This document shows, in pieces, positions 41,860 through 58,056 of a stretch of DNA of 64,000 nt. Location of the stretch: assembly GCF_018128245.1 (NCBI RefSeq), contig NZ_CP072378.1, forward strand, positions 1,922,001 through 1,986,000. Reading direction: 5' to 3'. A program made the translations under genes and the position numbers. How positions within the stretch are numbered: position 1 is the stretch's first letter; each line of letters starts with the position of its first letter. Source of the DNA: Leptotrichia sp. oral taxon 221. Its GTDB lineage: Bacteria; Fusobacteriota; Fusobacteriia; Fusobacteriales; Leptotrichiaceae. The notes under the pieces are model-generated. The model was not told the origin of the DNA. It saw only the letters and a list, made by a program, of their open reading frames with translations, and ran no database searches.

Positions 41860-42587
41860 TATTTTTTATCCCTTTCTGCCTGTGATTTTTCCAGATAATC
41901 TGGTTTTAAGTCAATAATATTTGTTTCCTTCAATTTTTCGTTAAAAAACATTTCTGTAAATGTTGTCGTACTAATTTTCAAAGAATTATCCTCAAAAATC
42001 TTCACTTTATCTGCTATTTTCTCAATAATTTTTCCCTTATAATTTAAAACTGCATCCCCAACTAAATAATTTTCCTTATTTTTAGAATTATTAATTTCCT
42101 CAATAATATTATCCAATTTTTTTACTTCATAATCTTTAATCTGTTTCAATTCAAATTCATTCTCTAAATTTTTCTGAACTTGATAAACTGCTGCATAAAC
42201 TTTTTCTTTTCGTGAATCAATCAACGAATAAATTTTCACATTTTCAATATCATTTTTTACGCCTTTCAATTGATAAAAAGCCTGATATGCCAACGCATCC
42301 AACTCATTCACTTCAAAAAATCTCACATTTTTATTAAAAAATAAACCTTTCACGACTGCAATTGCTATTCTCACACCTGTAAATGATCCTGGCCCTATCG
42401 AAACAAGCACATTTTCCACTTCATCAAGCGTCGTTCCTGTCCACTCAAACAATCTATCAAGTTGCTCCAAAATCTTAGTCGAATGAGTTTTTGCAACCTC
42501 AACCTTCACTTCTCCTAAATACTTTCCATTTTTATGCAACGAAAGTCCTGCCAATTTAGTCGTTGTCGTTATCGCAAATGTCAACAT
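41859..42587 (-). CDS. tsaB: tRNA threonylcarbamoyladenosine biosynthesis protein TsaB
   Basis: 242 residues from MLTFAITTTTKLAGLSLHKNG, an ASKHA-fold protein with HSTKILEQLDRLFEW and VSIGPGSFTGVRIAI. It supports TsaD in making t6A37 on tRNA. GGAGAG lies close upstream of 42587, which is chosen instead of 42602. The start overlaps the end of tsaE by 32 nt, so the two are likely coupled. Confidence 0.93.
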   Translation of the reverse strand: MLTFAITTTTKLAGLSLHKNGKYLGEVKVEVAKTHSTKILEQLDRLFEWTGTTLDEVENVLVSIGPGSFTGVRIAIAVVKGLFFNKNVRFFEVNELDALAYQAFYQLKGVKNDIENVKIYSLIDSRKEKVYAAVYQVQKNLENEFELKQIKDYEVKKLDNIIEEINNSKNKENYLVGDAVLNYKGKIIEKIADKVKIFEDNSLKISTTTFTEMFFNEKLKETNIIDLKPDYLEKSQAERDKK

Positions 42588-43023
42588 ATTTTTTCTCTCC
42601 ATCTTCTATTTGATAAACTGATACCTCTCGAGTATTTTCTCCATTATGATTAATTTCCACATAAATCGTGTCCTCTGGCATCTCGTCAATTATATTATTC
42701 GCCCATTCTACAATTACCACGCTATTTTCCTCACCGATATAATCTTCAAATCCAATTTCGTAAATTTCTTCAGAATTAATAATCCGATACGCATCAAAAT
42801 GGTAAACCGTAACATCTCCACTCTGATACTCAATAACATAAGTAAAAGTTGGACTTTTTATATTTTCATTTATATTATATTCTTTACAAATCTTTTTCGT
42901 AAAAGTCGTTTTCCCAGCTCCCAAATCTCCAATAAGCCCAAGACAACCACCTTTTCTCAATTTCCTAGCCATTTTTACTGCTAGTTCATCTATTTCCTCA
43001 AAATTCAATACTTTCCTATTCAT
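42556..43023 (-). CDS. tsaE: tRNA threonylcarbamoyladenosine ATPase TsaE
   Basis: 155 residues with P-loop GDLGAGKTTFTKKI, FDAYRI and VIVEWANNI motifs of TsaE (YjeE). It hydrolyses ATP to reset the TsaB-TsaD complex. First gene of tsaE-tsaB-ftsY; 52 nt from the stop of the heptose gene, with AGGGGAGAG before the ATG. Confidence 0.94.
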   Translation of the reverse strand: MNRKVLNFEEIDELAVKMARKLRKGGCLGLIGDLGAGKTTFTKKICKEYNINENIKSPTFTYVIEYQSGDVTVYHFDAYRIINSEEIYEIGFEDYIGEENSVVIVEWANNIIDEMPEDTIYVEINHNGENTREVSVYQIEDGEKKYVDICDNDND

Positions 43024-43075
43024 CTCTCCCCTTTTCTATAAAAATTTATTATTCACACACTTATTTATATGACGC

Positions 43076-43561
43076 CTACTTATACGCTTCCAATATTCTA
43101 TTTATAATCTCCGTTGTCGAAATATTGTCCACAAATGACAAAATCTTCACTTCTCCACCATTTTTCTCAACAATTTTCGTCTCTGGCAAATCCTCTTTCT
43201 TATAATCTCCACCCTTCACATGAATATCAGGTTTCAATAAATCAAGCACTTTCTCAGGCGTCTTCTCATTAAAAATAACTGTATAATCTACAAACTTCGT
43301 ACCCAATAGCATTTTTGCTCTATTTTCCTCACTATTTATCGGTCGCTTATCTCCTTTATTTACCTTCACAGAAGCATCACTGTTAACCGCCACAACCAAT
43401 ACATCTCCCAGCGATTTCGCCTCTTCAAGATAAGTCAAATGCCCAATATGCAAAATATCAAACACTCCATTTGTAAAAACAACCTTTTTCCCCTCTTTCT
43501 TAAACAATTCTATTTTCTCTTTCATCTCTTCCTGCGTTAATAAATTATCTTTAAAACTCAT
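43076..43561 (-). CDS. rfaE2: D-glycero-beta-D-manno-heptose-1-phosphate adenylyltransferase
   Basis: 161 residues, nucleotidyltransferase fold with VVFTNGVFDILHIGHLTYLEEAKSLGD and HVKGGDY and the C-terminal STTEIINRIL. It forms ADP-heptose for LPS core. Only the adenylyltransferase half is present; the kinase half of E. coli HldE must be encoded elsewhere. TTGGAG lies 6 nt before the ATG at 43561, which replaces a spurious start at 43693. Supports a Gram-negative LPS envelope. Confidence 0.92.
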   Translation of the reverse strand: MSFKDNLLTQEEMKEKIELFKKEGKKVVFTNGVFDILHIGHLTYLEEAKSLGDVLVVAVNSDASVKVNKGDKRPINSEENRAKMLLGTKFVDYTVIFNEKTPEKVLDLLKPDIHVKGGDYKKEDLPETKIVEKNGGEVKILSFVDNISTTEIINRILEAYK

Positions 43562-43654
43562 TCTATCTCCAATCTTTACTTCTTGCCACCAAATAGTAAC
43601 AAAAAAGACTTTACTCGCATTTTTACTAAATCTTTCTAAAAATAATCGCACTAA

Positions 43655-43663
43655 ATTATAACA
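43655..43663 (-). promoter_or_regulatory. Extended -10 promoter of the heptose adenylyltransferase gene
   Basis: TGTTATAAT on the minus strand (TATAAT at 43655-43660), directly after the T run of the ompA terminator. The spacing to any good -35 is poor. Confidence 0.45.
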
Positions 43664-43673
43664 CATTTTTTGT

Positions 43674-43709
43674 AAAAAAAAAAGAACCGTCAAAAGACGA
43701 TTCCTTTTT
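43674..43709 (-). terminator. Terminator of the ompA gene
   Basis: On the minus strand GGAATCGTC (43696-43704) pairs with GACGGTTC (43684-43691) around AAAA, and a run of ten Ts follows. It lies 16 nt past the ompA stop. Confidence 0.85.
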
Positions 43710-43725
43710 ATTTATTTTATTCTTA

Positions 43726-44832
43726 CTATCTGTTGATGAATTTAACATTGTTAAAGTCAACGTTTTGGAAGAATAATTCAACTCTTCTGTTGTTGTATCT
43801 TCCTTGAACAGTTTCGTTAGTATCAACTGGGTTAGTTTCTCCTTGTCCAGTGATTGTTCCGTAAGAAATTGTATTTTTCAATCCGTATTCTTTCAATAAT
43901 CTAGCTACGTTTTGAGCTCTTGCTACTGATAATTTTTGGTTATAAGCAGCTGCTCCAGTTGAATCTGTATGTCCAACGAAGTCGATTGATCCACCGTCAG
44001 CGAATTGGTTAATAATTCCTGCGATTGTTCTCAAATCTGATGCTTCAGCTTCATTAGGTACTCTTCCATCAACTTTAAATCCTCTAATTACACATTTTCT
44101 TTCATTAGCAGCACAGCTAAATGGTAATTGAACTGTATTTCTTGTATCAATATCAGGTTTTACTTCTGGTTTTGGTTCTGGTGCTGGTGCTGGTGCAGGC
44201 ACAACAACTGTTTTTTCTATAATTTTAGGTGATCTGTCATTTTTCAATTGACCGAATCTATATCCTACTCTTACTCCTGCTGAATCAATGTGATTTCTTG
44301 TTCTAAGATCAGTAGTTGTATCTTTCAATTTAACATCTGATCTTTCATAAATAGCTTCTAATGAAACTGGTCCAAATTCTGTACCAACTCCTGCTGCAGT
44401 GTATAATCCACCTTTAGCTTTAATTCCTGCATCTTTTGCAACATTGCTTTCTTTAGCAAAGTTGTATCCTGCTCTACCTAATAAGTATAAAGCATCATTT
44501 CCATTTTTAGTAGTAATTAAGTTAAATTTACCTACTGCATAAACTGGAACAGTTCTTAAAACTTTTGTTTTAGTTTCTTTATCTTTTAATTTAGATGAGT
44601 TGTTTGAGAATTTGTATTCTGATCCAACTCCCCATTCAAATTCACCTTGGTTATCGAAAAGATATTCAACACCTGCTGTAGGTCCTTTTACTAATTTTTC
44701 TCCTTTATTTCCAGAAATTCCTATTCCTGATTTAAATTCTCTGTAATAGTCATATCCACCTTTAACTTGCACTTCTGATGCAACAGCATTTAATGCTAAT
44801 AAGGCAGTTCCTAAAATAACTAACTTTTTCAT
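43726..44832 (-). CDS. OmpA family outer membrane protein
   Basis: 368 residues: signal peptide (MKKLVILGTALLALNAVASE), an N-terminal beta-barrel of alternating hydrophobic strands (about 21-210) ending in VGYRFG, a Pro/Ala/Glu linker (PAPAPAPEPKPEVKP) and an OmpA-like peptidoglycan-binding domain with VDFVGHTDSTGAAAYNQKLS-type motif and NRRVELFF. CAANERKCVIRGF at the start of the last domain holds two cysteines. It anchors the outer membrane to the wall. Strong promoter and terminator suggest high expression. Confidence 0.95.
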   Translation of the reverse strand: MKKLVILGTALLALNAVASEVQVKGGYDYYREFKSGIGISGNKGEKLVKGPTAGVEYLFDNQGEFEWGVGSEYKFSNNSSKLKDKETKTKVLRTVPVYAVGKFNLITTKNGNDALYLLGRAGYNFAKESNVAKDAGIKAKGGLYTAAGVGTEFGPVSLEAIYERSDVKLKDTTTDLRTRNHIDSAGVRVGYRFGQLKNDRSPKIIEKTVVVPAPAPAPEPKPEVKPDIDTRNTVQLPFSCAANERKCVIRGFKVDGRVPNEAEASDLRTIAGIINQFADGGSIDFVGHTDSTGAAAYNQKLSVARAQNVARLLKEYGLKNTISYGTITGQGETNPVDTNETVQGRYNNRRVELFFQNVDFNNVKFINR

Positions 44833-44898
44833 AATTTCCTCCTTAAAATTCTTCTAAAATAAAACAATTTCTTGAATTTTCCCTAACTTTCCACTAAG

Positions 44899-44927
44899 AT
44901 TATACTACATTTTAAGACTAAAATCAA
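44899..44927 (-). promoter_or_regulatory. Promoter of the ompA gene
   Basis: TTGATT (44922-44927), exactly 17 nt, TATAAT (44899-44904), about 60 nt upstream of the ATG. The best-matching standard promoter in the window. Confidence 0.8.
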
Positions 44928-45033
44928 CACTTTTTTTTATTTTTCTGCTAATTTATTTCATAACCTTCGTTAAAAAAGCGGTATTTCTTGACTTTTTAGT
45001 CATTTTCTATTTTTAAATTTTTTTCGAAAAATA

Positions 45034-47064
45034 TTAAATATTTATCATTTTATCAATAGAATTTTCTAATTTTTTCAATGTAGAAATTCTATTATTTTTA
45101 ATTTTTTTATCTTCAACATTAATTATAACGTTATCGAAATAGTTATTAATTACATTTGCATTATTCAATAAAACTTGAATGTAATTTGCAAATTCTTCAT
45201 TTTCAAGAAATTCCAATTCATTTCCTAATTCAAATATTGCTTTTTCCTCGTCTTTTTCAAATAAGTTTTCTGAAATTTCAGTTTCACCTTTGGTATCTTT
45301 AACTATATTTTTTACCCTTTTCAATAAGTTAATTAATGTTTCGAAATTTTCTGTTTTTGATAATTCCAATAACACTGATAATCTGTCATTTAATTTTACG
45401 ATATTGTTTTCAAGATTAATTTCATATGAAATCAAGTCTTTACTATATTTTTCACCTAAAACATTTGATAATCTTTGTTTAAACAATTCTACCACATTTT
45501 CCACAACATCTTTATCCAACACTTTTTTGTCAGCTGCAAAAATTTCGTAAGCCTTTTCGACTAATTTTTCGTAATTTAACTCTAATTTAGAATCCAATGC
45601 TACTTGAATGATTCCTTGAACTGCTCTTCTCAACGCATAAGGATCTTTTGAACTTGTTGGTTTTAAACCTACTGAATAACAACCTACTACAGTGTCGATT
45701 TTATCAGCAATTCCAGCTAATGCTCCTTCAATAGTTGTCGGCAAAATATCGTTTTGGTATCTTGGCAAATAATGTTCAAAAATTCCAAGTGCTACTTCTC
45801 TATCTTCACCTTGTTTTTCAGCATAAACTGATCCCATAAATCCTTGTAATTTTGTAAATTCTTTTTCTGCAATTACATTCGAAACCAAGTCTGCTTTTGA
45901 AAGTTCCACTGTTCTTAAGATATTTTTCTTTTTCGCTCCATATCCCAATTCATCTGTCAAATATTCAGCGATTTTTTTACTTCTTTGCATTTTTTCGTAA
46001 ATTGTTCCCATATCTTTTTGGAATGTAACTTCTTTTAATTTTTCCACATTATCGGCAAATTTACCTTTTAAATCTTCGTCAAAGAAGAATTTTGCATCAG
46101 CAAGTCTTGGCTCGATAACTTTTTCATTACCTTTTTTCACAACTTCCGAATACTCAGGTGCATTTCTAATTACAATAAATTTATTTGTCAATCTTCCATT
46201 TGCATCTTTCACTGGAAAATATCTTTGGTGTGTTTCCATAGTTATCGTAATAATATCTTCTGGAAGGTCCAAATAATCAGGATTGAACTCACCTTTTATC
46301 GCAAAAGGATATTCCACCAAATTCACAACTTCTTCCAATAAATAATTATTGATAATTGCAACATCACCATCATTTTCACAATTTTCTTTTATACTTTTCA
46401 AAATTTCTGCTTTTCTATCAGCTTTTCTAGCAATTACACTATTTTCTCTCAATTTTGAAACATATTCGTCAGGATTTGAAATTTCAACATCTTGTGGTGC
46501 AAAATATCTCATTCCACGAGTTTTGTTTCCACCTTTTAATCCTTCAAACTCAAAAGGCAATACTTCTGTTCCAAGCAAAGTCACAAACCATTTTATCGGT
46601 CTTGCAAATCTAAATGTTCTATCTGACCATTTCATTGATTTTTCAAACTCGATTTTTTTAATAACATTCGACAATATTTCTGGCAACACTTCTTTTGTAG
46701 GTTTTCCAGCAATAAATTTTTCAATTGAAATATATTTCCCTTTTTCATTTTCGATAATTTTTACATCATCAGGTGTCGCTCCTTGTGATTTTATAAATCC
46801 TTCTCCAGCTTTTGTCAATGCTCCATCTTTATAAGCGATTTCCACTGAAGGTCCAACACTTTTTTTATCCAAATCCGCTTGTTTTTCAGCAATATCTTTA
46901 ACAATAATCGCCACTCTTCTAGGCGTACTAAAAGACTCTATTTCTGAAAACGCAATTCTTTCTTCTTTTAACTCTTTTTCCGCAATTTTTTTCAAATTAC
47001 TTTCAGCCTCGTCTACATATCTCGAAGGCAATTCTTCTAATCCTATTTCAAAAAGAAAATTCAA
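45034..47064 (-). CDS. glyS: Glycyl-tRNA synthetase beta subunit
   Basis: 676 residues: NFLFEIGLEELPSRYV, FSTPRRVAIIVKDI and a C-terminal DALR-like anticodon-binding domain after about 560. The beta chain carries the tRNA recognition part of the alpha2beta2 enzyme. It is normally next to glyQ; here about 2 kb holding two other genes separates them. A terminator is not obvious at its end. GAAAGGAGTG precedes the ATG. Confidence 0.97.
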   Translation of the reverse strand: MNFLFEIGLEELPSRYVDEAESNLKKIAEKELKEERIAFSEIESFSTPRRVAIIVKDIAEKQADLDKKSVGPSVEIAYKDGALTKAGEGFIKSQGATPDDVKIIENEKGKYISIEKFIAGKPTKEVLPEILSNVIKKIEFEKSMKWSDRTFRFARPIKWFVTLLGTEVLPFEFEGLKGGNKTRGMRYFAPQDVEISNPDEYVSKLRENSVIARKADRKAEILKSIKENCENDGDVAIINNYLLEEVVNLVEYPFAIKGEFNPDYLDLPEDIITITMETHQRYFPVKDANGRLTNKFIVIRNAPEYSEVVKKGNEKVIEPRLADAKFFFDEDLKGKFADNVEKLKEVTFQKDMGTIYEKMQRSKKIAEYLTDELGYGAKKKNILRTVELSKADLVSNVIAEKEFTKLQGFMGSVYAEKQGEDREVALGIFEHYLPRYQNDILPTTIEGALAGIADKIDTVVGCYSVGLKPTSSKDPYALRRAVQGIIQVALDSKLELNYEKLVEKAYEIFAADKKVLDKDVVENVVELFKQRLSNVLGEKYSKDLISYEINLENNIVKLNDRLSVLLELSKTENFETLINLLKRVKNIVKDTKGETEISENLFEKDEEKAIFELGNELEFLENEEFANYIQVLLNNANVINNYFDNVIINVEDKKIKNNRISTLKKLENSIDKMINI

Positions 47065-47152
47065 TTTTTTTCACTCCTTTCGGTATTTACACTCTTCTTT
47101 TTTTATTTTTTATAAATTTTCGCCCAAAAAGAAGTAAAAAAGACTTTATTTT

Positions 47153-47761
47153 TTATTTTAATTTCTCATATTTTCTTATAAATTTTTCCTCAAATTCCTC
47201 TTTTGAGTAGGTGTGTACATTTTTAAAACAATAATTTTTAAATTTTTCAAGTCCAAAACAAATGATTTCATCTTTACCAAAAGTATTTTCTCCAACTGAT
47301 AAACTGCTTCCCTGATTTATAAAATAATTTCCAATCTCTGAAATGGAATTCTTTTCATTTGGTAAATTTTTTTCTTCATTATAGACTAAAATATAATTTG
47401 TAATTTCTTTTAAAGTATTTAAAGATTTTTCTTCAATATCTCCTAAAACAAACATACTATTAAGAATCTTTAACTCTATATCCTTTAATTTTTTTATATC
47501 AATTCTATTAGACTTATCAAGTAATTTCCCATTTTTAAATTCAATAAAAGTATATCTTCTATCGCTATGTAAAAATAAAACATCATTTGTTTTTAGCTGA
47601 ATTCTCAAATTATTATTTCTAGTGTACTTATCTCCTCCAACACTATCAAAATTAATTACTTTAATTTGACTTTCTGTCATATATTCTTCATTGTTATCAT
47701 CTTTTGAAGTTTGCTTTAATGTAGAAGTATTGTATATTTTCAAATTAATTTTTTTACTCAT
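47153..47761 (-). CDS. Small partner of the ATPase; possible PD-(D/E)XK-like effector
   Basis: 202 residues, no family recognised. The strand-turn VLFLHSDRRYTFIEFKNGKL (61-80) contains D67, E74 and K76; the E-x-K pattern in IEFKNGK resembles PD-(D/E)XK nuclease cores. It is followed by helices, then YILVYNEEKN (about 124-132) and a conserved-looking tail FKNYCFKNVHTYSKEEFEEKF. The ATG lies inside the last codons of the ATPase gene (8-nt overlap), so both are made together. Placed between glyQ and glyS. A nuclease or toxin role is inference from the motif and context only. Confidence 0.75.
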   Translation of the reverse strand: MSKKINLKIYNTSTLKQTSKDDNNEEYMTESQIKVINFDSVGGDKYTRNNNLRIQLKTNDVLFLHSDRRYTFIEFKNGKLLDKSNRIDIKKLKDIELKILNSMFVLGDIEEKSLNTLKEITNYILVYNEEKNLPNEKNSISEIGNYFINQGSSLSVGENTFGKDEIICFGLEKFKNYCFKNVHTYSKEEFEEKFIRKYEKLK

Positions 47762-49010
47762 CTAAATCACTGCTATATCTAATATTTTCTAAATCCTGAA
47801 TCGGTCTTGCTAATTTTCTATAAATTTCTCTTGTATTTCCTGTTACATCTTTTATAATACTACTATTTCCTTCATTTTCAGCCACATAATATTTACATTT
47901 ATCATCAATTTTATGTCGTTCCGAAAAAACTTCAATTGCATTTAAAAAATATGGACTATGTGTTGTCAATAAAATATGCATTCCAAACTCTCTTTGCAAT
48001 AAAACTATCAATTCAGCAAATTTTAGTTGCCATTCTGGATGTAAATGAATTTCTGGCTCATCAAGAATTATTGTTCCATTTTCTTCCAAAGTTCCATTTT
48101 GCAATAACATTTTTATAATTGCAAAAGTTTTAAGCCCTGTAGATAAATTTTTTAAGTCAATATCTTCACCATTTTTTCTGTAAACAAATTTAGAATTTTT
48201 ATTTTCCAAAATTTCTCCACTCAAAACACTGTTTAATTTTTGGTAAATATTATTCAATTTTTTCTTCACTTTTATTTCAGAAATAACACTATTTTCGTTT
48301 TCTGAAAAAACATTGGTTGCTAAATGTGTCTGGTGATTCTCACCCTCGAAATCATAACTATCCAAAATAAATGGATTGTCAATATACATTGTTTCTTTAT
48401 TTATTAAAAAATAATTTTGAACATCTGAAATTTCATTATTTTCAATTTTTAAATCTATTTCTTTATCTTTTATTTTAAGACTTATTTCTCCAATATTCAT
48501 TTTTTCTTTAGAAAAAACGGCATTAATTTGATTATGAAATTCTTTATTCATAATTCGTGAAACAATAACTTTTATGATTTCTTTGTCTGAAATTTTTAAA
48601 GTTTCATTTATTTTTTGAACAAAATTTGAAATATTTTCAATTTTTAGATCTTTTTTATAATTATTAATTATAATTTTTATCTCATCTTCTGAATAATTTT
48701 TATTATTTTTTAAAAGTTCAATAGCAATTTTTTCCCTCGTACTGTTAAAAATTTCAAAAAAAGAATTATAATCCATTGAAAGATTTTTATAAACATTTTC
48801 TTTTATGATTTCATCTATAATTTTTTCTAACTCAGAAACTTTTTCATTATAAACTTTCTCATCAATTTCATAAAATCCATTAAAAACACTCCACAAAACT
48901 TTCCCAACCGTACTTTTCCCAGTATCATTTTCACCAGTGATAACCGTTATTCCATCAATTACAACTTCAGCATTTTTTAATTTCCCGATATTGTTTATTG
49001 TTAGTTTCAT
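47754..49010 (-). CDS. AAA/ABC-type ATPase (AAA15/OLD-like), candidate defence sensor
   Basis: 418 residues from MKLTINNIGKLKNAEVVIDG. Walker A GENDTGKS (26-33), a long lysine/isoleucine-rich coil-like insert (about 45-200), signature-like LSTGLKTFAII, Walker B TIILDEPEIHLHP (about 313-325), and the H-loop LLTTHSPYFLNA (about 347-358). These mark SMC/ABC-type P-loop ATPases such as OLD, PtuA and RloA families. No TOPRIM domain follows, unlike class 1 OLD. AAGGAG before 49010 selects this start over 49031. It is coupled to the following small gene. Confidence 0.85.
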   Translation of the reverse strand: MKLTINNIGKLKNAEVVIDGITVITGENDTGKSTVGKVLWSVFNGFYEIDEKVYNEKVSELEKIIDEIIKENVYKNLSMDYNSFFEIFNSTREKIAIELLKNNKNYSEDEIKIIINNYKKDLKIENISNFVQKINETLKISDKEIIKVIVSRIMNKEFHNQINAVFSKEKMNIGEISLKIKDKEIDLKIENNEISDVQNYFLINKETMYIDNPFILDSYDFEGENHQTHLATNVFSENENSVISEIKVKKKLNNIYQKLNSVLSGEILENKNSKFVYRKNGEDIDLKNLSTGLKTFAIIKMLLQNGTLEENGTIILDEPEIHLHPEWQLKFAELIVLLQREFGMHILLTTHSPYFLNAIEVFSERHKIDDKCKYYVAENEGNSSIIKDVTGNTREIYRKLARPIQDLENIRYSSDLDE

Positions 49011-49061
49011 CGCACACTCCTTCCTTCTCAAAATCTTTTGAAAAGCCCCCTTTTATATTTC

Positions 49062-49931
49062 TTATTTTTTCAACAATGGATATCCCAATTCTTTTCTTGT
49101 CGCCACAAATTGTTCGGCACATTTTTTAGCTAAATCTCTTACTCTTAAGATGTAAGACATTCTTTCTGTTGTACTGATTGCACCTCTTGCGTCAAGATTG
49201 TTAAATGTGTGTGAACATTTTAGCACATAATCGTAAGCTGGTAATACCAAGTTATGATTCAAGCAATTTAATGCTTCTTTTTCATACATATCGAATAATT
49301 GGAAGTGCATTGGCACATCGGCTACTTCAAAGCTGTATTTCGACATTTCGTACTCGAATTGGAATCTTCTTTCTCCGTATTTTACACCTTTTGTCCACTC
49401 TAAATCTTTTACATCATCTTTATTTTGTAAATAAAGTGCGATTCTTTCAAGTCCATAAGTTAATTCTGATGGAACAATTTCAACTTCTAATCCTCCAACT
49501 TGTTGGAAATAAGTAAATTGAGTTACTTCCATTCCATCTAACCATACTTCCCATCCAAGTCCCCATGCTCCTAATGTAGGACTTTCCCAGTTATCCTCTA
49601 CAAATCTTATATCATGCTCTTTCGGATCAATTCCTAGTGCAACCAAACTTTCTAAATATAATTCTTGTATATTTTCTGGCGATGGTTTCATTATTACTTG
49701 AAATTGGTGATGTTGATAAACTCTATTTGGATTTTCTCCATATCTTCCATCTTTTGGTCTTCTCGATGGCTCAACATACGCAATATTCCAAGGTTCTGGT
49801 CCTAATGACATCAAAAATGTATCAGGGTTAAAAGTCCCCGCTCCAGTTTCCACATCATAAGGATTCCCAATTACACAACCTTTTTCTCCCCAAAATTTTT
49901 GAAGAGTTAATATAATTTCCTGAAAAGTCAT
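49062..49931 (-). CDS. glyQ: Glycyl-tRNA synthetase alpha subunit
   Basis: 289 residues: [21 protein letters not shown] and then the class II core with [27 protein letters not shown] and [20 protein letters not shown]. Holds the catalytic site of the alpha2beta2 enzyme. The ATG overlaps the stop of the upstream membrane-protein gene by four bases (ATGA). The downstream genes are the ATPase cassette (51-nt gap) and then glyS. Confidence 0.98.
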
Positions 49932-50626
49932 TTATCTCTATCCTTTCTCTTTTTTATTAATTTTATTTTCAAAATCACTGCTACTAAAGTCAATAATACT
50001 ATAGTTGTATATTTAATAGTATTAAACGTTGTTATATTTATTTTATTTGATAAATAATTATCCTCTATAAATTTATAATATGGTGATAATTTCTTTTTTT
50101 CTCCATATTGTCGTATAACTTTAAATGGATATTTCAAATCAAGGTTTTTTATTTTTAATTTTTCTTTTAATTGTTCTTCTGTTAAATTAAATATTTCTTC
50201 TTTTGAATTGATGATAAAATATCCTGATTTTTTATCTATTTTTTTTCTTTCTTTTTCAGTTAATTCATCATATCCCGCCAAATAAAAAATATCACTTGGA
50301 AGCTCTTCAATTTTATTAATATAGCCAATCCAATTATTTTTTTCTTTTTTTAAACCTTCTAAATAACCGACATTCGTTAAATAATAAGCAGTATGTTCAA
50401 AATCTTCTATTTCTACCAAATATCCATTTTTTAATTTTAAAACTGTATTTTCTTTAACAGGAAACCAAACAAAGAAAAATAAGAGCACAAAAATTAGTAT
50501 TCCAATATTTATTTTAAATGTTGTTCTTAGTTTATTTTTTGAAATTATTATGCTTATAATCAAAATAATCACTACTATAATTAGAACAAAAAATAACAAT
50601 ACTAAGATTAGCCCTCCAAACATCAA
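49928..50626 (-). CDS. Membrane protein of unknown function
   Basis: 232 residues: two N-terminal hydrophobic helices (about 1-27 and 35-53, [21 protein letters not shown] and [17 protein letters not shown]), a soluble region (about 54-200) with [18 protein letters not shown], and a C-terminal helix ([14 protein letters not shown]) followed by a basic end. No family recognised. It sits between lspA and glyQ with a 4-nt overlap with glyQ, so it is expressed with aminoacylation and lipoprotein genes, but no functional link is evident. Confidence 0.7.
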
Positions 50627-51097
50627 TTATTCACCACTCTTTTTCTCTCTACACTTTCTCACTAAATAATCAATAACAATAATATAAATCCCAATATGAA
50701 CATACATATCTGCAACATTGAACACAAAATTCCAAATTCCACGAAAATCTATCATATCAATTACAAAATTTCTAAAAACTCTGTCAATCATATTTCCTAA
50801 TGCTCCAGCTGCAACGATTGAAATACCAATTTTTGTCCATTTTGTATAATTTTTAAAATTTTTAATTTCTGTCGCAACGATATAACCAATCAAAATTAAA
50901 CTTCCTATCGTAAAAAGATTTATTTTCCCTTGAAATAATCCAAAAATTCCTCCGTGATTTTCAACATAAGTTAAATTAAAAAAATTTTTGATTATTGGGA
51001 TAGAAAATCCTATTTGTCCATGTGCTGCTTGATACATGGCTTGTTTTGTGATTTGATCAATCGCTGCTAACACTACTAAAATCACTACGTATAACAT
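50627..51097 (-). CDS. lspA: Lipoprotein signal peptidase
   Basis: 156 residues, four membrane helices. The catalytic aspartates are in GNMIDRVF and NVADMYVHIG; FVIDMIDF is the conserved segment between them. It cleaves prolipoproteins after diacylglyceryl transfer. Three nt after ileS, the ileS-lspA order common to many bacteria. Confidence 0.96.
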   Translation of the reverse strand: MLYVVILVVLAAIDQITKQAMYQAAHGQIGFSIPIIKNFFNLTYVENHGGIFGLFQGKINLFTIGSLILIGYIVATEIKNFKNYTKWTKIGISIVAAGALGNMIDRVFRNFVIDMIDFRGIWNFVFNVADMYVHIGIYIIVIDYLVRKCREKKSGE

Positions 51098-51100
51098 CTA

Positions 51101-53896
51101 TTACCCTTCCAGCTCAGCAAGAACTTTAGCACATCTTGGGTCTACATCTGGATATCTTTCATCTTTTCCAACTTCTTCGCTGTATTTCCAACATCTTTCA
51201 CATTTTTTACCTAATGCTTTTGTTACACCGATTGAAACTCCTTCGATTTCACTTTTTTCTAATTCATCGTCTACAAATTTAGTTTGTGACACGATAAATA
51301 AATCAGAAACTTCATCTTCTGTGTAATCTTTTAAGAATGAATAATCATCGTTTGTGATGTTTAAAAGAACTCTTGCATCAAGCGAATGTCCGATTAATCC
51401 TTCTTGTCTTTGTGCTTCGATTTTTTTGTTTACTTCTTTTCTTAAATGAGCGATTTTTTCCCATTTTTTCGCTAATTCTTCATTTTTGTAAGCTGGATTT
51501 GGATCAATCCAAGATGCCAAATGTACACTTTCTTCATCTTTCAATGACGCAGGAATTCTTTCCCAAATTTCTTCAGCTGTAAATGACAATACTGGCGAAA
51601 TTATTCTTACTAACACTTTCAACACTTCTGTTAATACAGTTTGAGCACTTCTTCTTTCAAGCGATTTAGGTCCTTCACAGTAAAGTCTATCTTTTACGAT
51701 ATCCAAGTAGAATGAAGACATTTCGATTGAACAGAAGTATGTAATTTCTTGGAATAGGTTGTAAAATTCGTATTTGTCGTAGTACTCAGTTGTTTTTTCT
51801 TTCAATTCTTCCAATTTATGCATTGCCCATTTATCAATTTCAAACATATCGTTATAGTCAACTTTTTCAGTCGCATAATCGAAATCATTTAAGTTACCCA
51901 TTAGGAATCTAGCTGTATTTCTAATTCTTCTATACGCATCTGACATTTGTTGTAAAATGTTTTCAGAAATTCTTACATCTTCCCTGTAATCTACTGATGA
52001 TACCCAAAGTCTTAAAATATCTGCTCCATATTTTTCAATAATATCTTTTGGAACAATTGTATTTCCAAGCGATTTAGACATTTTTCTACCTTGTCCATCC
52101 ATTACAAATCCATGAGTTAAAACTCTTTTGTATGGTGCATCTTTTGTACTTGCGATTGAAGTTAATAATGAAGATTGGAACCATCCTCTATGTTGGTCAC
52201 TTCCTTCTAAATACAAATCAGCTGGTCTTGGCAAGTTTCTTGGTACTAAAACTCCTCTGTGAGAAACTCCTGAATCAAACCAAACATCCATGATACTTCT
52301 TTCTTTTCTAATTTCTATATCTTTTAAGTTTAATTTTTCCAATAATTCTTCACCGATAATTTCTTTAGCTTCATATTTCCACCAAATATCAGTTCCTTCT
52401 TTTTTCACTAATTCGATAACTCTATCCATAATTTCAGAATCGTAAATCACTTCATTTGTTTCTTTGTTATAGAATAATGGAATTGGTACTCCCCAAACTC
52501 TTTGTCTTGAAATTGTCCAATCTGGTCTTGTTTCAATCATCGCATTAATTCTATTTTTACCCCATTCAGGCACGAATTCTACTTTTTTCAACGCATCTAA
52601 CGCATTTTGTCTGATGTCGCTTTCATCTACGCTAATGAACCATTGTTCAGTCGCTCTAAAAATAACTGGTTTTTTACTTCTCCAATCATGTGGATAAGAG
52701 TGAACGAAAGTTGTGTGATACAACATATGTCCGCTTTCAGTTAAGTCTTCAACAATCGCTTTACTTGCTTTTGCATAGAACATTCCTTCATATTTTCCAG
52801 CTTCTTTAGTCATATGCCCTTTATCATCTACTGGCGACAAAATTCCAATGTTATATTTCAATGAATAATTATAGTCATCTGCCCCATGTCCCGGTGCTGT
52901 ATGAACTGCTCCTGTACCTGCATCTATTGTTACATAATCAGCATTCATTACTAACCCTTTTCTATCTAAGAACGGATGTTGATAATGAGTGTATTCCAAT
53001 TCTGTCCCTTTAAATTCTTTTAATAATTCATACGACAAGTCCAATGTTTTAAATACATCTTCAGCCAAGTCTTTTGCAACTACAAGATTACCTTTTTCAG
53101 TTTTATACAATCCGTAATCAAATTCAGGATGTAAGAATACTCCCAAGTTTGCTGGCAATGTCCAAGGTGTTGTTGTCCAAATTAAAATACTTGCTTCATC
53201 CACACCTAATTTATCAGTCAAATCTTTTTCCCCTTCAAATTTTACATAAATTGAATGAGAAGTTACATCTTTATACTCAATTTCTGCTTCTGCAAGTGCA
53301 GTTTCAGTAGTTGGCGACCAGTATACTGGTTTTAACCCTTTATAAATATATCCATTTTCATAAATTTCTTTAAATACTTTTAATTGTTCTGCTTCAAATT
53401 CTGGTTTTAATGTGATATAAGGATTATCCCAATCTCCTAAAACTCCAAGTCTTACAAACTCTTTCTTTTGTTTTTCTACCCATTTCAAAGCATATTTTTT
53501 ACATTCTTGTCTAATTTGAAGAGGAGTCATTGCTTTTGCTTTTTCTCCCAATTCTTCCATGATTTTCCATTCGATTGGAAGTCCGTGAGTATCCCAACCT
53601 GGAATATATGGAGCATTATACCCTCTCAATCTTTTATACTTCAAAATTATATCTTTTAACACTTTATTCATCGCATGTCCAATATGAATATCTCCATTTG
53701 CATACGGTGGTCCATCGTGTAAAATAAAGAACGGATGACCTTCTTTTAATGATTTTTCATAAATGCTAGATTTTGTCCAATCTCTTAAAGTCAATGGTTC
53801 TTTTTGTGCTAAATTAGCTTTCATTTTAAAACTTGTTTTTGGCAAATTCAGTGTTTTTGCATAATCTACCTTCTCAACATTTTGATTTTCTGACAT
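51101..53896 (-). CDS. ileS: Isoleucyl-tRNA synthetase
   Basis: 931 residues, class I: HIGH motif as [16 protein letters not shown] as [10 protein letters not shown], an editing domain with TTPWTLPAN and [23 protein letters not shown], and a C-terminal zinc ribbon [12 protein letters not shown]...DPRCAKV. It charges tRNA-Ile and edits Val. First gene of the ileS-lspA-glyQ-glyS transcript. No T-box core was seen in the leader. It has a GGAGG ribosome-binding site. Confidence 0.98.
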
Positions 53897-54022
53897 TATT
53901 TCCTCCTATATTAATTGATACCTCTCTTAATTCAATCTAAATCATTCAAAATTTCAAATTTATTCATTTTTTAGCTCAATTTAAAAAGGTTCATTTTATT
54001 ATCTTTTCTACATTATTTTTTT

Positions 54023-54031
54023 ATTATATCA
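54023..54031 (-). promoter_or_regulatory. Extended -10 promoter of the ileS operon
   Basis: TGATATAAT on the minus strand (TATAAT at 54023-54028) with a weak -35 (TTTAAA) 17 nt upstream. It gives a leader of about 120 nt before ileS. Confidence 0.55.
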
Positions 54032-54085
54032 CGATTTTACTGTTTTTTAAATACGCTATTATTCTTTTTGTCGTTATAAAATAAT

Positions 54086-54129
54086 AAGGAGATACTAGAA
54101 CCTTTCTCTTCAATTCTAATATTCTCCTT
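54086..54129 (-). terminator. Terminator after the lactate permease gene
   Basis: AAGGAGATACTAGAA (54086-54100) pairs with TTCTAATATTCTCCTT (54114-54129) with a small internal mismatch. It lies about 50 nt past the lctP stop; the T run is stronger on the plus strand. Confidence 0.6.
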
Positions 54130-54177
54130 TTTTTAATATTTATTCAATCTCAAAATTTATAAATTAAATAAAGTTGA

Positions 54178-55737
54178 TTATCCAAGCATTCCTGCTCCGA
54201 TGAATGTTAAAATACCTAAAATAGCTGCATAAGCTATCGAATATTTAACAGTAAATTTAAGCATATCTCCTTCTTTACCCATTAATCCAACTGTTGAAGC
54301 GGCAATTGCGATATTTTGTGGAGAAATCATTTTTCCTCCTGTTGCTCCACCTGTACCAGCGGCAATATATAATGCTTTCAATGCATCATGCGATCCTGCT
54401 ATATTTACTTGAACTCCACCAAATAATAAGTTAGATGCCAAGTCACTTCCTGTTACGAATGTACCAATAGTTCCTAAGAATGGCGAAATAACTGGGAATA
54501 ATTTTCCTGTTGCAGCAAATCCTTTTGCTATACTTTCAATCATTCCACTATGTTTCATTACTACTGACAATGCTACAATTCCCATAATTACTACAACTGA
54601 AGGCAATTTACTTAAAATTGTTTCTTTTAAAGTTTCAGCCATAACTTTTGGTTTTACTCCTTGAATAAATCCTGCAATTACTGTTGCAACAAATAATGGT
54701 GCAGCTGGTGCTAAAATCCATTTGAATATTACACTTGGATTTCCTTTATCTTTAAACCAAGTTGCTTCATGTCCTAAAGCAAAATTGAATTGAGTAGTTG
54801 TTGGTTCTAAAGCTTTATGAACAGCTTCTACAACTGGACTTGTTCCAATAATTAAGATTATCATTAAAATATATGGAACCCAAGCCATAAATGCATCTTT
54901 TCCAGTAATAGCTTGACCTTTATTAGATTTTGCACTTTCATCTTCTTTAATAAAGATTTTAGTAGCAACTATCATTAAGATCATTGCAAATAAACTTGAT
55001 AAAATTGTTGGTAATTCTGCACCCATTGCTTTTGCAATAAATGGTTGTGTTAAGTAACCAATGATTGAAGCAATAACTACTGGTAAAATTCCTCTTCCAA
55101 ATGCTGCGTTTTTTCCACCATCAATTTCTTTATTAGCCATTATTACTAAGATAAATGGTATAATACATGTTAATAATAATAATAATAATGATGTGTAAAA
55201 TGCTGTTTCTCCTGCATTCAAATGAAAGTTTGAAATCATTGTTGTTACAGGTAATCCAACTGTCCCAAACGCTGTTGGTGTTGAATTTGCAATTAAACAA
55301 ATTAAAGCGGCATTCAAAGGATTAAATCCTAATGAAACCATGATTGCTGCTGGAATAGCAACTGCTGTTCCATATCCTGCAATACCTTCTATAAATCCAC
55401 CAAATCCCCAAGCTAATACTAACGCTTGAGCTCTTTTATCTGTCGAGATACTTCCTAACATTGATTTGATTGTTTCGATTTTACCAGTTTTTACTGATAA
55501 ATCATAAGCAAATAATGCAGCAAATACTACGAAACCAATAGGCATCCATGCTGTCGCAAATCCTTCAATAATTGAAGCAATAACTCCTTGAACTGGCATT
55601 CTCCATCCCGGCATAACAAAATTTAAAATAATTGCCACTACTAAACTGGCATACGCACTAAACATTGCTGATTTCTTTAAGAATGTCAACAATATCAAAA
55701 ATACAACTATTGGCACTAATCCAACTAAAAATTCCAT
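54178..55737 (-). CDS. lctP: L-lactate permease
   Basis: 519 residues with about 12-14 membrane helices. WGFGGFIEGIAGYGTAVAIPAAIMVSLGF and IANSTPTAFGTVGLPV are LctP/LldP signatures, and GTGGATGGKMISPQNIAIA occurs near the C-terminus. It moves L-lactate with protons; in a fermenter it probably exports lactate. Flanked by terminators, so it is monocistronic. Confidence 0.95.
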   Translation of the reverse strand: MEFLVGLVPIVVFLILLTFLKKSAMFSAYASLVVAIILNFVMPGWRMPVQGVIASIIEGFATAWMPIGFVVFAALFAYDLSVKTGKIETIKSMLGSISTDKRAQALVLAWGFGGFIEGIAGYGTAVAIPAAIMVSLGFNPLNAALICLIANSTPTAFGTVGLPVTTMISNFHLNAGETAFYTSLLLLLLTCIIPFILVIMANKEIDGGKNAAFGRGILPVVIASIIGYLTQPFIAKAMGAELPTILSSLFAMILMIVATKIFIKEDESAKSNKGQAITGKDAFMAWVPYILMIILIIGTSPVVEAVHKALEPTTTQFNFALGHEATWFKDKGNPSVIFKWILAPAAPLFVATVIAGFIQGVKPKVMAETLKETILSKLPSVVVIMGIVALSVVMKHSGMIESIAKGFAATGKLFPVISPFLGTIGTFVTGSDLASNLLFGGVQVNIAGSHDALKALYIAAGTGGATGGKMISPQNIAIAASTVGLMGKEGDMLKFTVKYSIAYAAILGILTFIGAGMLG

Positions 55738-55887
55738 TCCTGAACCTTCCTTCTTTCTTTATATTTTTTTAATAAACTAACACTTTGTACCGTTATATAT
55801 TATCAAATTTTTTTAAAAAGTACAAATATTTTTTTCAAAAATTACCATTTTTATGATATTTTTCATATTTTTATACTTTCTAATTTT

Positions 55888-58056
55888 TTATAACCCTTTT
55901 CTTGTAAGCCCAACTCTTCCTCTAACCTTATCTAACGAAAGAATTTTAACTTTTATAATTTGCCCAACTGATAACTCTTTTGTAGGATCAGCTACAAACT
56001 TATCTGATATTTCAGAGACATGAATTAAGGCATCACTTTTTAGCCCTATATCCACAAAAGCCCCAAATTTAGCAACATTTCTAACTGTTCCTTCTAAAAC
56101 CATTCCTTCTTGCAAATCGTCCATATTTAAAATATCCGATCTCAATAATGGTTTTTCAAACTCATCTCTTGGGTCTCTTCTATCTTTTAGCAACGCTTCG
56201 TAAACATCTTTTGCAGTTTGTGGTCCAAAATCATTTTCTTTTATAATTTTGTCCAAATCCACTGTTTTCAATTTCTGTCTAACTTCATCCAAATTAGATT
56301 TTAAATCGTCAACCTTACAATTTGCTTCCTTCAAAATAGTTTCAGCGATATGATACGATTCTGGATGGATTATCGTATTATCCAAAGGATTTTTACTATT
56401 AGGCACTACAACGAATCCTGCCATTTGTTCAAACGCCTTCGTTCCAAGCCCTTTTACCTTTTTCAATTCTTTTCTATCCTTAAAATCTCCATTTTCATGT
56501 CTATAGTCTACAAGATTTTTTGCTACATTTTTCTTAATTCCTGAAACAAAACTAAGTAATGCCCAAGAAGCTGTATTAATATTGACTCCAACATTATTTA
56601 CAACATGCTCAATCGTTTGTTCCAATGTTTCATTCAATTTTTTTTGATTTACATCATGCTGATACATTCCAACTCCAATTGATTTTGGATCAATTTTTAC
56701 AAGCTCAGCCATCGGATCTTGAATTCTTCTAGCAATCGAAATCGCTCCTCTCGCCGTTACATCCAAATCAGGAAACTCCTCAATTGCAATTTTTGAAGCT
56801 GAATAAACTGAAGCTCCTGCTTCACTTACAATCAAGTATGACACAGGTTTTGACGCCTCTTTTATGACATTTGCCACAAAACTTTCAGTTTCACGAGAAG
56901 CTGTCCCATTCCCAATTGCAATAATATCAACATCGTATTTTTTTATGTAATCCAATATTTTTTTCTTTGCCATTTCAAGCTGCTTTGGATTATGCACTCC
57001 TTCAACCAAGAAAAGTACATCATTCACTTCATAAAATCCATCTTTATTGATAACAACCATTTTACAACCTGTTCTATACCCTGGATCTAATCCCATCAAA
57101 GTTTTTTTACTTAATGGCGGCTGTAATAACAATTTTTCAAGATTTTCAGAAAAAATATTAATTGCTTCTTCTTCTGCTTTTTCCGTGTATATGTTTCTCA
57201 CTTCATTCTTAATCGATGGATAAGCTAATCTATCTAGCGAATCTTTAATAATCTCTTTATAGAATTCCACCAAATTTTTGTTCCCAAACAAAGTTTTCAA
57301 AATGAAATTAACTACAAAATTCTCAGTTTTATCATCAATTTCAATATCTACTTTCAAGATTTTCTCTTTTTCTCCTCTGTTAATCGCTAAAATCCTGTTC
57401 GATGCTGATTTTGAAATGGGTTCTGAATATTCGTAATAGTCTTGATAAACTCCATTTTCATCATTTTCTTTGTTTTTCTCAACAACTTTTGAAGTCAAAA
57501 TTCCAAATTTTGAAATTTTTTCTCTCAAAAATTCTCTAATTTTCACATTTTCTGAAATGTCTTGTGCAATTATTAAATGCACACCTTCAATTGCCTTTTC
57601 AACCGTGTCAACTTCTTCATTCAAATACTTTTTAGCCTCTTCCTGAAGTGCTTCCATTGTTGTTTTTGGCAATAACGCAAATGTCGATAAAGGCTCCAAT
57701 CCTTGCTCCTTCGCTACATCCGCTTTCGTTTTTTTCTTTTTCTTATATGGAAGGTACAAATCTTCTACTTCCTGTAATTTCTTTGCACTTTCGATACTCT
57801 TTTTCAGCTCATCAGTCAATTTTCCTTGCTCTTCAATCAACCTCAAAACTTCTTCTTTTCTCTTTTCCAAATTTCTGTAATAAGTTACTTTTTCTATTAC
57901 ATCTCTAATCTGTTCCTCATCCAAATTACCTGTAACTTCTTTTCTATAACGTGCAATAAATGGTACTGTTGCGCCTTCATCAAAAAGTTTCACAGTATTC
58001 TCGATTTGCGTCAGCTTAAATTGTAGCTCATCTGCCACACTACTTAAAATCTCCAC
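55888..58056 (-). CDS. tex: Tex family transcription accessory protein
   Basis: 722 residues: N-terminal helical domain (VADELQFKLTQIENTVKLFDEGATVPFIARYRKE), YqgF-like fold (GLDPGYRTGCKMVVI), helix-hairpin-helix (VGVNINTASWALLSFVSGI...NLVDYRHENG) and a C-terminal S1 domain (LQEGMVLEGTVRNVAKFGAFVDIGL). Tex binds nucleic acid and RNA polymerase and affects transcription and stress tolerance. Full length. Confidence 0.96.
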   Translation of the reverse strand: MEILSSVADELQFKLTQIENTVKLFDEGATVPFIARYRKEVTGNLDEEQIRDVIEKVTYYRNLEKRKEEVLRLIEEQGKLTDELKKSIESAKKLQEVEDLYLPYKKKKKTKADVAKEQGLEPLSTFALLPKTTMEALQEEAKKYLNEEVDTVEKAIEGVHLIIAQDISENVKIREFLREKISKFGILTSKVVEKNKENDENGVYQDYYEYSEPISKSASNRILAINRGEKEKILKVDIEIDDKTENFVVNFILKTLFGNKNLVEFYKEIIKDSLDRLAYPSIKNEVRNIYTEKAEEEAINIFSENLEKLLLQPPLSKKTLMGLDPGYRTGCKMVVINKDGFYEVNDVLFLVEGVHNPKQLEMAKKKILDYIKKYDVDIIAIGNGTASRETESFVANVIKEASKPVSYLIVSEAGASVYSASKIAIEEFPDLDVTARGAISIARRIQDPMAELVKIDPKSIGVGMYQHDVNQKKLNETLEQTIEHVVNNVGVNINTASWALLSFVSGIKKNVAKNLVDYRHENGDFKDRKELKKVKGLGTKAFEQMAGFVVVPNSKNPLDNTIIHPESYHIAETILKEANCKVDDLKSNLDEVRQKLKTVDLDKIIKENDFGPQTAKDVYEALLKDRRDPRDEFEKPLLRSDILNMDDLQEGMVLEGTVRNVAKFGAFVDIGLKSDALIHVSEISDKFVADPTKELSVGQIIKVKILSLDKVRGRVGLTRKGL

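Follow-up and report, generated by a model that had tools for sequence, protein, structure and literature searches.

Why are glyQ and glyS, the genes for the two subunits of glycyl-tRNA synthetase, separated in Leptotrichia sp. oral taxon 221 by a pair of overlapping genes, what might that pair do, and how did it come to lie there? We addressed these questions in a 64,000-nucleotide stretch of DNA (the window) from a host genome of 2,076,334 bases in 2 contigs. By the list of open reading frames, the frames, their strand, the 8-nt overlap and the glyQ and glyS flanks are all as the original prediction for this locus had described them. In reading direction, the locus comprises:

49062..49931, minus strand: glyQ, encoding the alpha subunit of glycyl-tRNA synthetase, which bounds the slot on the left as read (open reading frame; matched in all 33 family genomes).
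47754..49010, minus strand: OLD/ABC-type ATPase of 418 aa, gene 1 of the pair (AAA_21, AAA_15, PADLOC and phrog matches).
48909..48935, minus strand: Walker A of the ATPase, residues 26-34, with K32 (motif table and conservation).
48396..48875, minus strand: variable middle region of the ATPase, residues 46-205, the proposed sensor (allele identity; local replacement at codons 61-105).
48129..48149, minus strand: ABC-signature-like motif NLSTGLK of the ATPase, residues 288-294 (motif table and conservation).
48036..48062, minus strand: Walker B of the ATPase and following residues, DEPEIHLHP, 317-325 (motif table and conservation).
47958..47960, minus strand: H-loop histidine H351 of the ATPase (motif table and conservation).
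47754..47761, minus strand: 8-nt overlap of the ATPase and small-protein reading frames (open reading frames).
47153..47761, minus strand: small protein of 202 aa, proposed PD-(D/E)XK-like nuclease effector (no Pfam or PADLOC match at E≤1; invariant residues).
47582..47584, minus strand: D60 of the small protein (conservation).
47534..47542, minus strand: E74-F75-K76 of the small protein (translation and conservation).
45034..47064, minus strand: glyS, encoding the beta subunit of glycyl-tRNA synthetase, which bounds the slot on the right as read (open reading frame; matched in all 33 family genomes).

The ATPase is read from an ATG at 49010, with an alternative TTG possible 21 nt upstream (49031). 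The start of glyS (47064) is TTG in the window's own genome and in G029, G031, G002, G024 and G021, and ATG in the remaining 8 of 14 genomes. Promoter-like sites around the locus showed no excess (19 against 20.7 expected), the single terminator-like site (0.2 expected) is located within glyQ, and an Rfam search of window positions 42000-56000 gave no match; the pair is probably transcribed with the glyQS operon. No integrase was seen within or adjoining the cassette, no clear duplication was found at its borders, and no phage genes were seen around the pair, which is chromosomal. In 600-nt bins, GC content is 20-25% across the three cassette bins and 25-33% in the glyS and glyQ bins, and it is likewise 20% in the gene upstream of glyQ (49928-50626). 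That gene, on the minus strand between lspA and glyQ, encodes a 232-aa protein with hydrophobic ends and is also variable: its DNA identity is 99% to G032, where lspA stands at 76% and glyQ at 83%, and 46-70% to the other alignable relatives, and the G032 copy appears as two overlapping matches, as if frameshifted. Judged by these identities, it may be a second exchanged gene near glyQ.

The original prediction had stated that glyQ and glyS are almost always adjacent, and had proposed examining their junction in related genomes. When distances were taken from match ends in 33 genomes of the family, which qualifies the first statement, the two genes proved to lie 11-146 nt apart in 22 and 1.9-3.2 kb apart in 9; in G006 the distance is 674 nt without any intervening open reading frame of at least 50 aa, and in G019 the genes lie on different contigs, with other open reading frames after glyQ. 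These G019 frames (L166:1311-3790) continue to the contig end, one of them of 278 aa and lipase-like by eye, and are possibly a third kind of slot cargo. In the slot survey of 14 genomes (the window's own and 13 of genus g3) the junction proved variable, containing the pair in 8, 22-148 nt in 5 and another gene set in G021. The G021 slot (L043:4903-8065) holds 3.2 kb of other genes, among them an Eco57I-type methylase (PF07669, 1.6e-24), a short further frame, a GmrSD_N/DUF262 protein (PADLOC NsnA 3.5e-55, PD-T4-2_A 3.9e-29) and a HEPN protein (PF18737, 2.9e-29; no PADLOC match). The junction contents across the 33 genomes thus indicate a slot that accepts different cargo, its closed state being the commoner. 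As a separate observation, G026 carries, after an apparent MutS2 end (named by eye), another ATPase (406 aa), which shares an overlap with a 155-aa protein whose cysteine pattern is HNH-like; by eye this looks Septu-like (L034:991-2662).

The position of the pair could be taken to mean that it serves glycyl-tRNA synthetase, or translation, in a housekeeping role and merely happens to be encoded in the operon, as its recurrence inside glyQ-glyS in 8 of 14 genomes would suggest. However, the pair is absent from G002, whose glyQ and glyS are 94% and 89% identical in DNA to those of the window, and from most genomes of the family, and it lies away from glyQS in G046, in Clostridia, in prophages and on plasmids. 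We regard this housekeeping reading as nearly refuted already and give it hardly any credence.

Horizontal acquisition, which the original prediction had favored, is supported by the patchy presence of the pair and by identity shifts at the cassette edges. Between the window and G011, the cassette is 95% identical in DNA, whereas glyQ is 84% and glyS 77% identical and the short stretches flanking the cassette reach 68% and 63%. Compared with G024, the first ~850 nt of the ATPase gene show 42-82% identity, the remaining cassette and the stretch before glyS 92-100%, glyQ 86% and glyS 77%. On these comparisons, we conclude that the cassette has moved horizontally, and recombination through the flanks would be the simplest route of entry into glyQ-glyS.

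The matches of the ATPase to AAA_21 (8.5e-19) and AAA_15 (1.4e-17) are both past the Pfam cut-off, and it matches the PADLOC models HEC-02A (1.3e-23), PD-T4-4_A (2.4e-22), AriA (1.5e-20), NsnB (3.8e-20) and PtuA (5.3e-20), phrog_14430 (4.8e-44, residues 1-409) and solved structures of PtuA/AriA-type proteins. The Walker A lysine K32, the signature-like motif N288-K294, Walker B D317/E318 and H351 are all in place, and K32, N288, G292, K294, D317, E318 and H351 are kept in 25 of 25 ATPase/small-protein pairs, so that the motifs predicted to be intact are conserved as well; a TOPRIM match in Pfam is lacking. Conservation is nevertheless unevenly spread along the protein. Mean pairwise identity among eight Leptotrichia alleles is 82% over residues 1-45, 41% over 46-205, 46% over 206-280, 86% over 281-360 and 65% over 361-418. 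Relative to G031, codons 61-105 differ at pN 0.213 and pS 0.307, as against pN 0.007 and pS 0.035 over codons 106-418, a contrast that looks like local replacement. Two relatives, L059 and L060, encode ATPases of ~300 aa that are without most of residues 46-149 and 52-149, respectively, and each adjoins an open small gene, making this a natural short form. Allele comparison indicates that this middle region varies and that strains have exchanged it.

The small protein had been described as belonging to no recognized family, and it has no Pfam family at E≤1 and no PADLOC match at E≤1. Its profile gave no matches in the PDB at E≤10; the single sequence gave only matches at E 0.8-0.95, to one unrelated protein. 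A Pfam scan of 21 members of the small-protein family touched seven families, none convincing, among them PF15518 (viral L-protein N terminus), touched by 5 of the 21 with a best E of 0.022, a mere hint. By conservation, S19, D39, D60, E74, F75, K76, G78 and K98 are invariant in 25 of 25 pairs. D60, then E74-x-K76, then K98 follow one another as they should in a PD-(D/E)XK fold, and at the level of motifs the small protein carries a PD-(D/E)XK-like pattern. Of the catalytic core originally proposed, D67/E74/K76, the E74 and K76 residues stand, whereas D67 is not conserved and is rejected as a catalytic residue, the acidic partner being D60.

The two proteins also vary in concert. To G024, the C-terminal extension of the ATPase (residues 361-418) is 97% identical and the small protein 96%, and to G017, G032 and G028 the corresponding values are 39-53% and 39-45%. 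This joint variation agrees with the C-terminal extension holding the nuclease; we infer that the extension docks the small protein and that the middle region is a separately evolving sensor.

The small protein is encoded in 9 of 149 genomes around that of the window (its own included), and the small-protein profile matches in 7 of 391 genomes of the Roseburia inulinivorans class (Clostridia), among which are the seed genome itself, a fragment and a match that is doubtful. The ATPase profile identified 73 loci in viral contigs; 46 of these (L088, L094-L138) match only part of the ATPase and were left out, and the partner was examined at the other 27. An intact small gene directly follows the ATPase in 24 of the 27 and a broken remnant in 3, which supplies the conserved pairing that the original prediction had proposed to look for, though the 27 are not independent cases, since several are near-identical prophages and a single contig supplies both L067 and L052. 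Two plasmids also carry the pair, a mobilizable one of 5.9 kb from K. pneumoniae and one from Acinetobacter, and in one viral contig a relative adjoins a serine recombinase. L056 (MT835532.1), labelled 'Bacteriophage sp.', encodes, next to the pair, a MobL relaxase as well as a ParB-like protein and may therefore represent a conjugative element, not a phage. An E. coli version occurs in 8 of 5426 genomes and, in the one of the eight whose surroundings were inspected, sits between the P2-type gpA (replication) and portal genes; by tblastn, both of these genes were found at 15 of 28 viral loci (L066-L093). The P2 gpA-portal locus is described as a defence hotspot in published work (PMC9122126; PMC9519451). 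Viral-contig scans with two single small proteins found no relative, tblastn of small proteins against phages and of the window's small protein against plasmids found none, and tblastn of the L074 small protein against plasmids returned 2 records. The hotspot and mobile surroundings of these relatives, together with the defence-type set in the same slot of G021, agree with the defence context that had been proposed, as far as gene neighborhoods can indicate. Nor is the pair always at glyQ-glyS with no mobile or defence context, the outcome named beforehand as speaking against that proposal.

Could the pair nonetheless be a self-maintaining addiction module, in which the ATPase does no more than neutralize the small protein and phage defence plays no part? 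An overlapping gene pair of a small putative nuclease with a larger partner, often on mobile elements, has the look of a toxin-antitoxin system. However, the slot is empty in 5 of 14 genomes, and orphan remnants of the small gene without the ATPase exist (L065, with one stop). Moreover, for WonAB of the V. cholerae WASA-1 prophage, reported as a tested abortive-infection system of an OLD-ABC ATPase and a PD-(D/E)xK nuclease, WonB toxicity is described as requiring WonA, which excludes a simple toxin-antitoxin reading there (PMC12137116). We consider an addiction pair highly improbable for the locus in the window.

Collectively, the comparisons indicate that the pair is real, moves horizontally and is of a defence type already known, and we think it likely that it is a WonAB-type abortive-infection system, a mode of action that we propose because of the anatomy. 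The OLD-type ABC ATPase would be expected to dimerize around ATP, its variable middle (about residues 46-205) would sense an infection signal, and its C-terminal extension would hold the small protein, predicted to be a metal-dependent nuclease of PD-(D/E)XK fold with D60, E74, K76 and perhaps D39 and K98 in its active site. Upon infection, the ATPase would switch the small protein on and growth of the infected cell would stop, most likely through cutting of RNA needed for translation; for WonB, rRNA or tRNA is named as a target by way of suggestion (PMC12137116).

The RNA target is the least certain step, and its main rival keeps the architecture of the defence pair but gives the nuclease a DNA substrate, phage or host, so that the pair would restrict or kill by DNA damage. 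PD-(D/E)XK-like motifs such as those of the small protein are common in DNA restriction enzymes, and Septu PtuA and OLD proteins, which the window ATPase matches, either have DNA nucleases as partners or are such nucleases themselves. The sequence features of the window, however, do not tell DNA from RNA cleavage, and in WonAB, the nearest tested system, activity is reported to leave genomic DNA intact while translation stops (PMC12137116). We judge DNA cleavage unlikely, with a weight well above that of an addiction pair. A more far-reaching version of the RNA-targeting, WonAB-type reading would join location, expression and target: glyQ-glyS would be a compact Leptotrichia defence slot in which a WonAB-like system diversifies, the ATPase half that senses being swapped while the nuclease-docking half stays constant, its expression would ride on the glycyl-tRNA synthetase operon, and its nuclease might attack the translation apparatus (e.g. 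tRNA). This combined proposal is speculative, and we hold it to be doubtful, somewhat more so than DNA cleavage.

What is new here is that the pair lies within glyQS, that the slot can hold other cargo and that the ATPase has undergone internal exchanges, and among the listed titles and abstracts on Leptotrichia phage defence, WonAB and OLD-ABC we found no description of the pair in Leptotrichia. A recently tested ATPase-plus-nuclease defence class can now be placed in Leptotrichia-type bacteria, and an essential two-gene operon serves as a slot for exchangeable cargo. What the WonAB ATPase senses is still being worked out, according to a review (PMC12409358), and natural alleles that share the nuclease and differ in the ATPase middle (the window and G024) offer a probe of what such ATPases sense; the natural ATPases without most of the middle (L059 and L060) make the same question approachable.

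As to known systems, the original prediction took Septu (PtuAB), PARIS (AriAB) and Gabija (GajAB) as its models, each of which likewise couples an OLD/ABC-type ATPase to an effector. Their partner domains were not found: we reject Septu for lack of an HNH match in Pfam and PARIS for lack of DUF4435/TOPRIM, in both cases for the window's small protein and 21 family members, and Gabija for a 418-aa ATPase without a TOPRIM match and a partner without a UvrD/helicase match in Pfam. The PADLOC candidate HEC-02 supplies the best PADLOC model for the ATPase (HEC-02A, 1.3e-23), but HEC-02B also matches the ATPase (4.3e-20) and not the small protein. Better comparisons are PD-T4-4 and WonAB. PD-T4-4 (Vassallo et al., PMC9519451) is listed in a table of PMC10952713 as an ATPase with a PD-(D/E)XK nuclease. 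The window ATPase matches PD-T4-4_A (2.4e-22), but many other ATPase models match it too, and the PD-T4-4_B model, at 190 positions, is near the small protein in size. Unlike the A protein, PD-T4-4_B has no match to the small protein (E≤1) or to four relatives (E≤0.01), and membership in PD-T4-4 fails on the B protein by PADLOC. Run against the window's own genome, the PD-T4-4_B model gave no match, a negative that carries no weight because the control likewise matched nowhere; its 13 weak matches in 391 Clostridia-class genomes (E 0.0135-0.0994), several with stops, were rejected as noise.

For WonAB, the published account reports that defence depends on both genes, on the ATPase residues and on K71 of WonB, that infection by ICP1 is abortive and does not end in lysis, that modelling predicts WonB to be held by the C-terminal extension of WonA, and that homologues are mainly Gram-negative and present in 0.43% of genomes (PMC12137116). 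Its authors see a relation between WonAB and operons that Krishnan et al. describe as 'OLD-ABC ATPase + novel REase' (PMC12137116), an assignment repeated in a later review (PMC12409358), and according to a 2026 survey, pairs of an OLD-ABC ATPase and a PD-(D/E)XK enzyme occur near BREX systems (PMC12839542). Our comparison covers this published description, gene order and motif classes; a published wonA primer had 0 matches in viral contigs. Unlike WonAB, the window pair is on the chromosome between glyQ and glyS, and no phage genes were seen nearby. Like WonAB, it is a two-gene operon with the ATPase gene first and with relatives in prophages. WonA K34, E300 and H333 have their counterparts in K32, E318 and H351 of the window ATPase, with an E-H spacing of 33 residues in both, and the essential WonB K71, in a PD-(D/E)xK-like motif, corresponds by motif position to K76. 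The gene order (in the window and in 24 of 27 viral relatives), the ABC-ATPase motifs (Walker A, signature, Walker B and H-loop) and, as a motif only, PD-(D/E)xK are thus all found here, and together they suggest that the window pair works like WonAB; although not filed as WonAB itself, it probably belongs to the same broad class.
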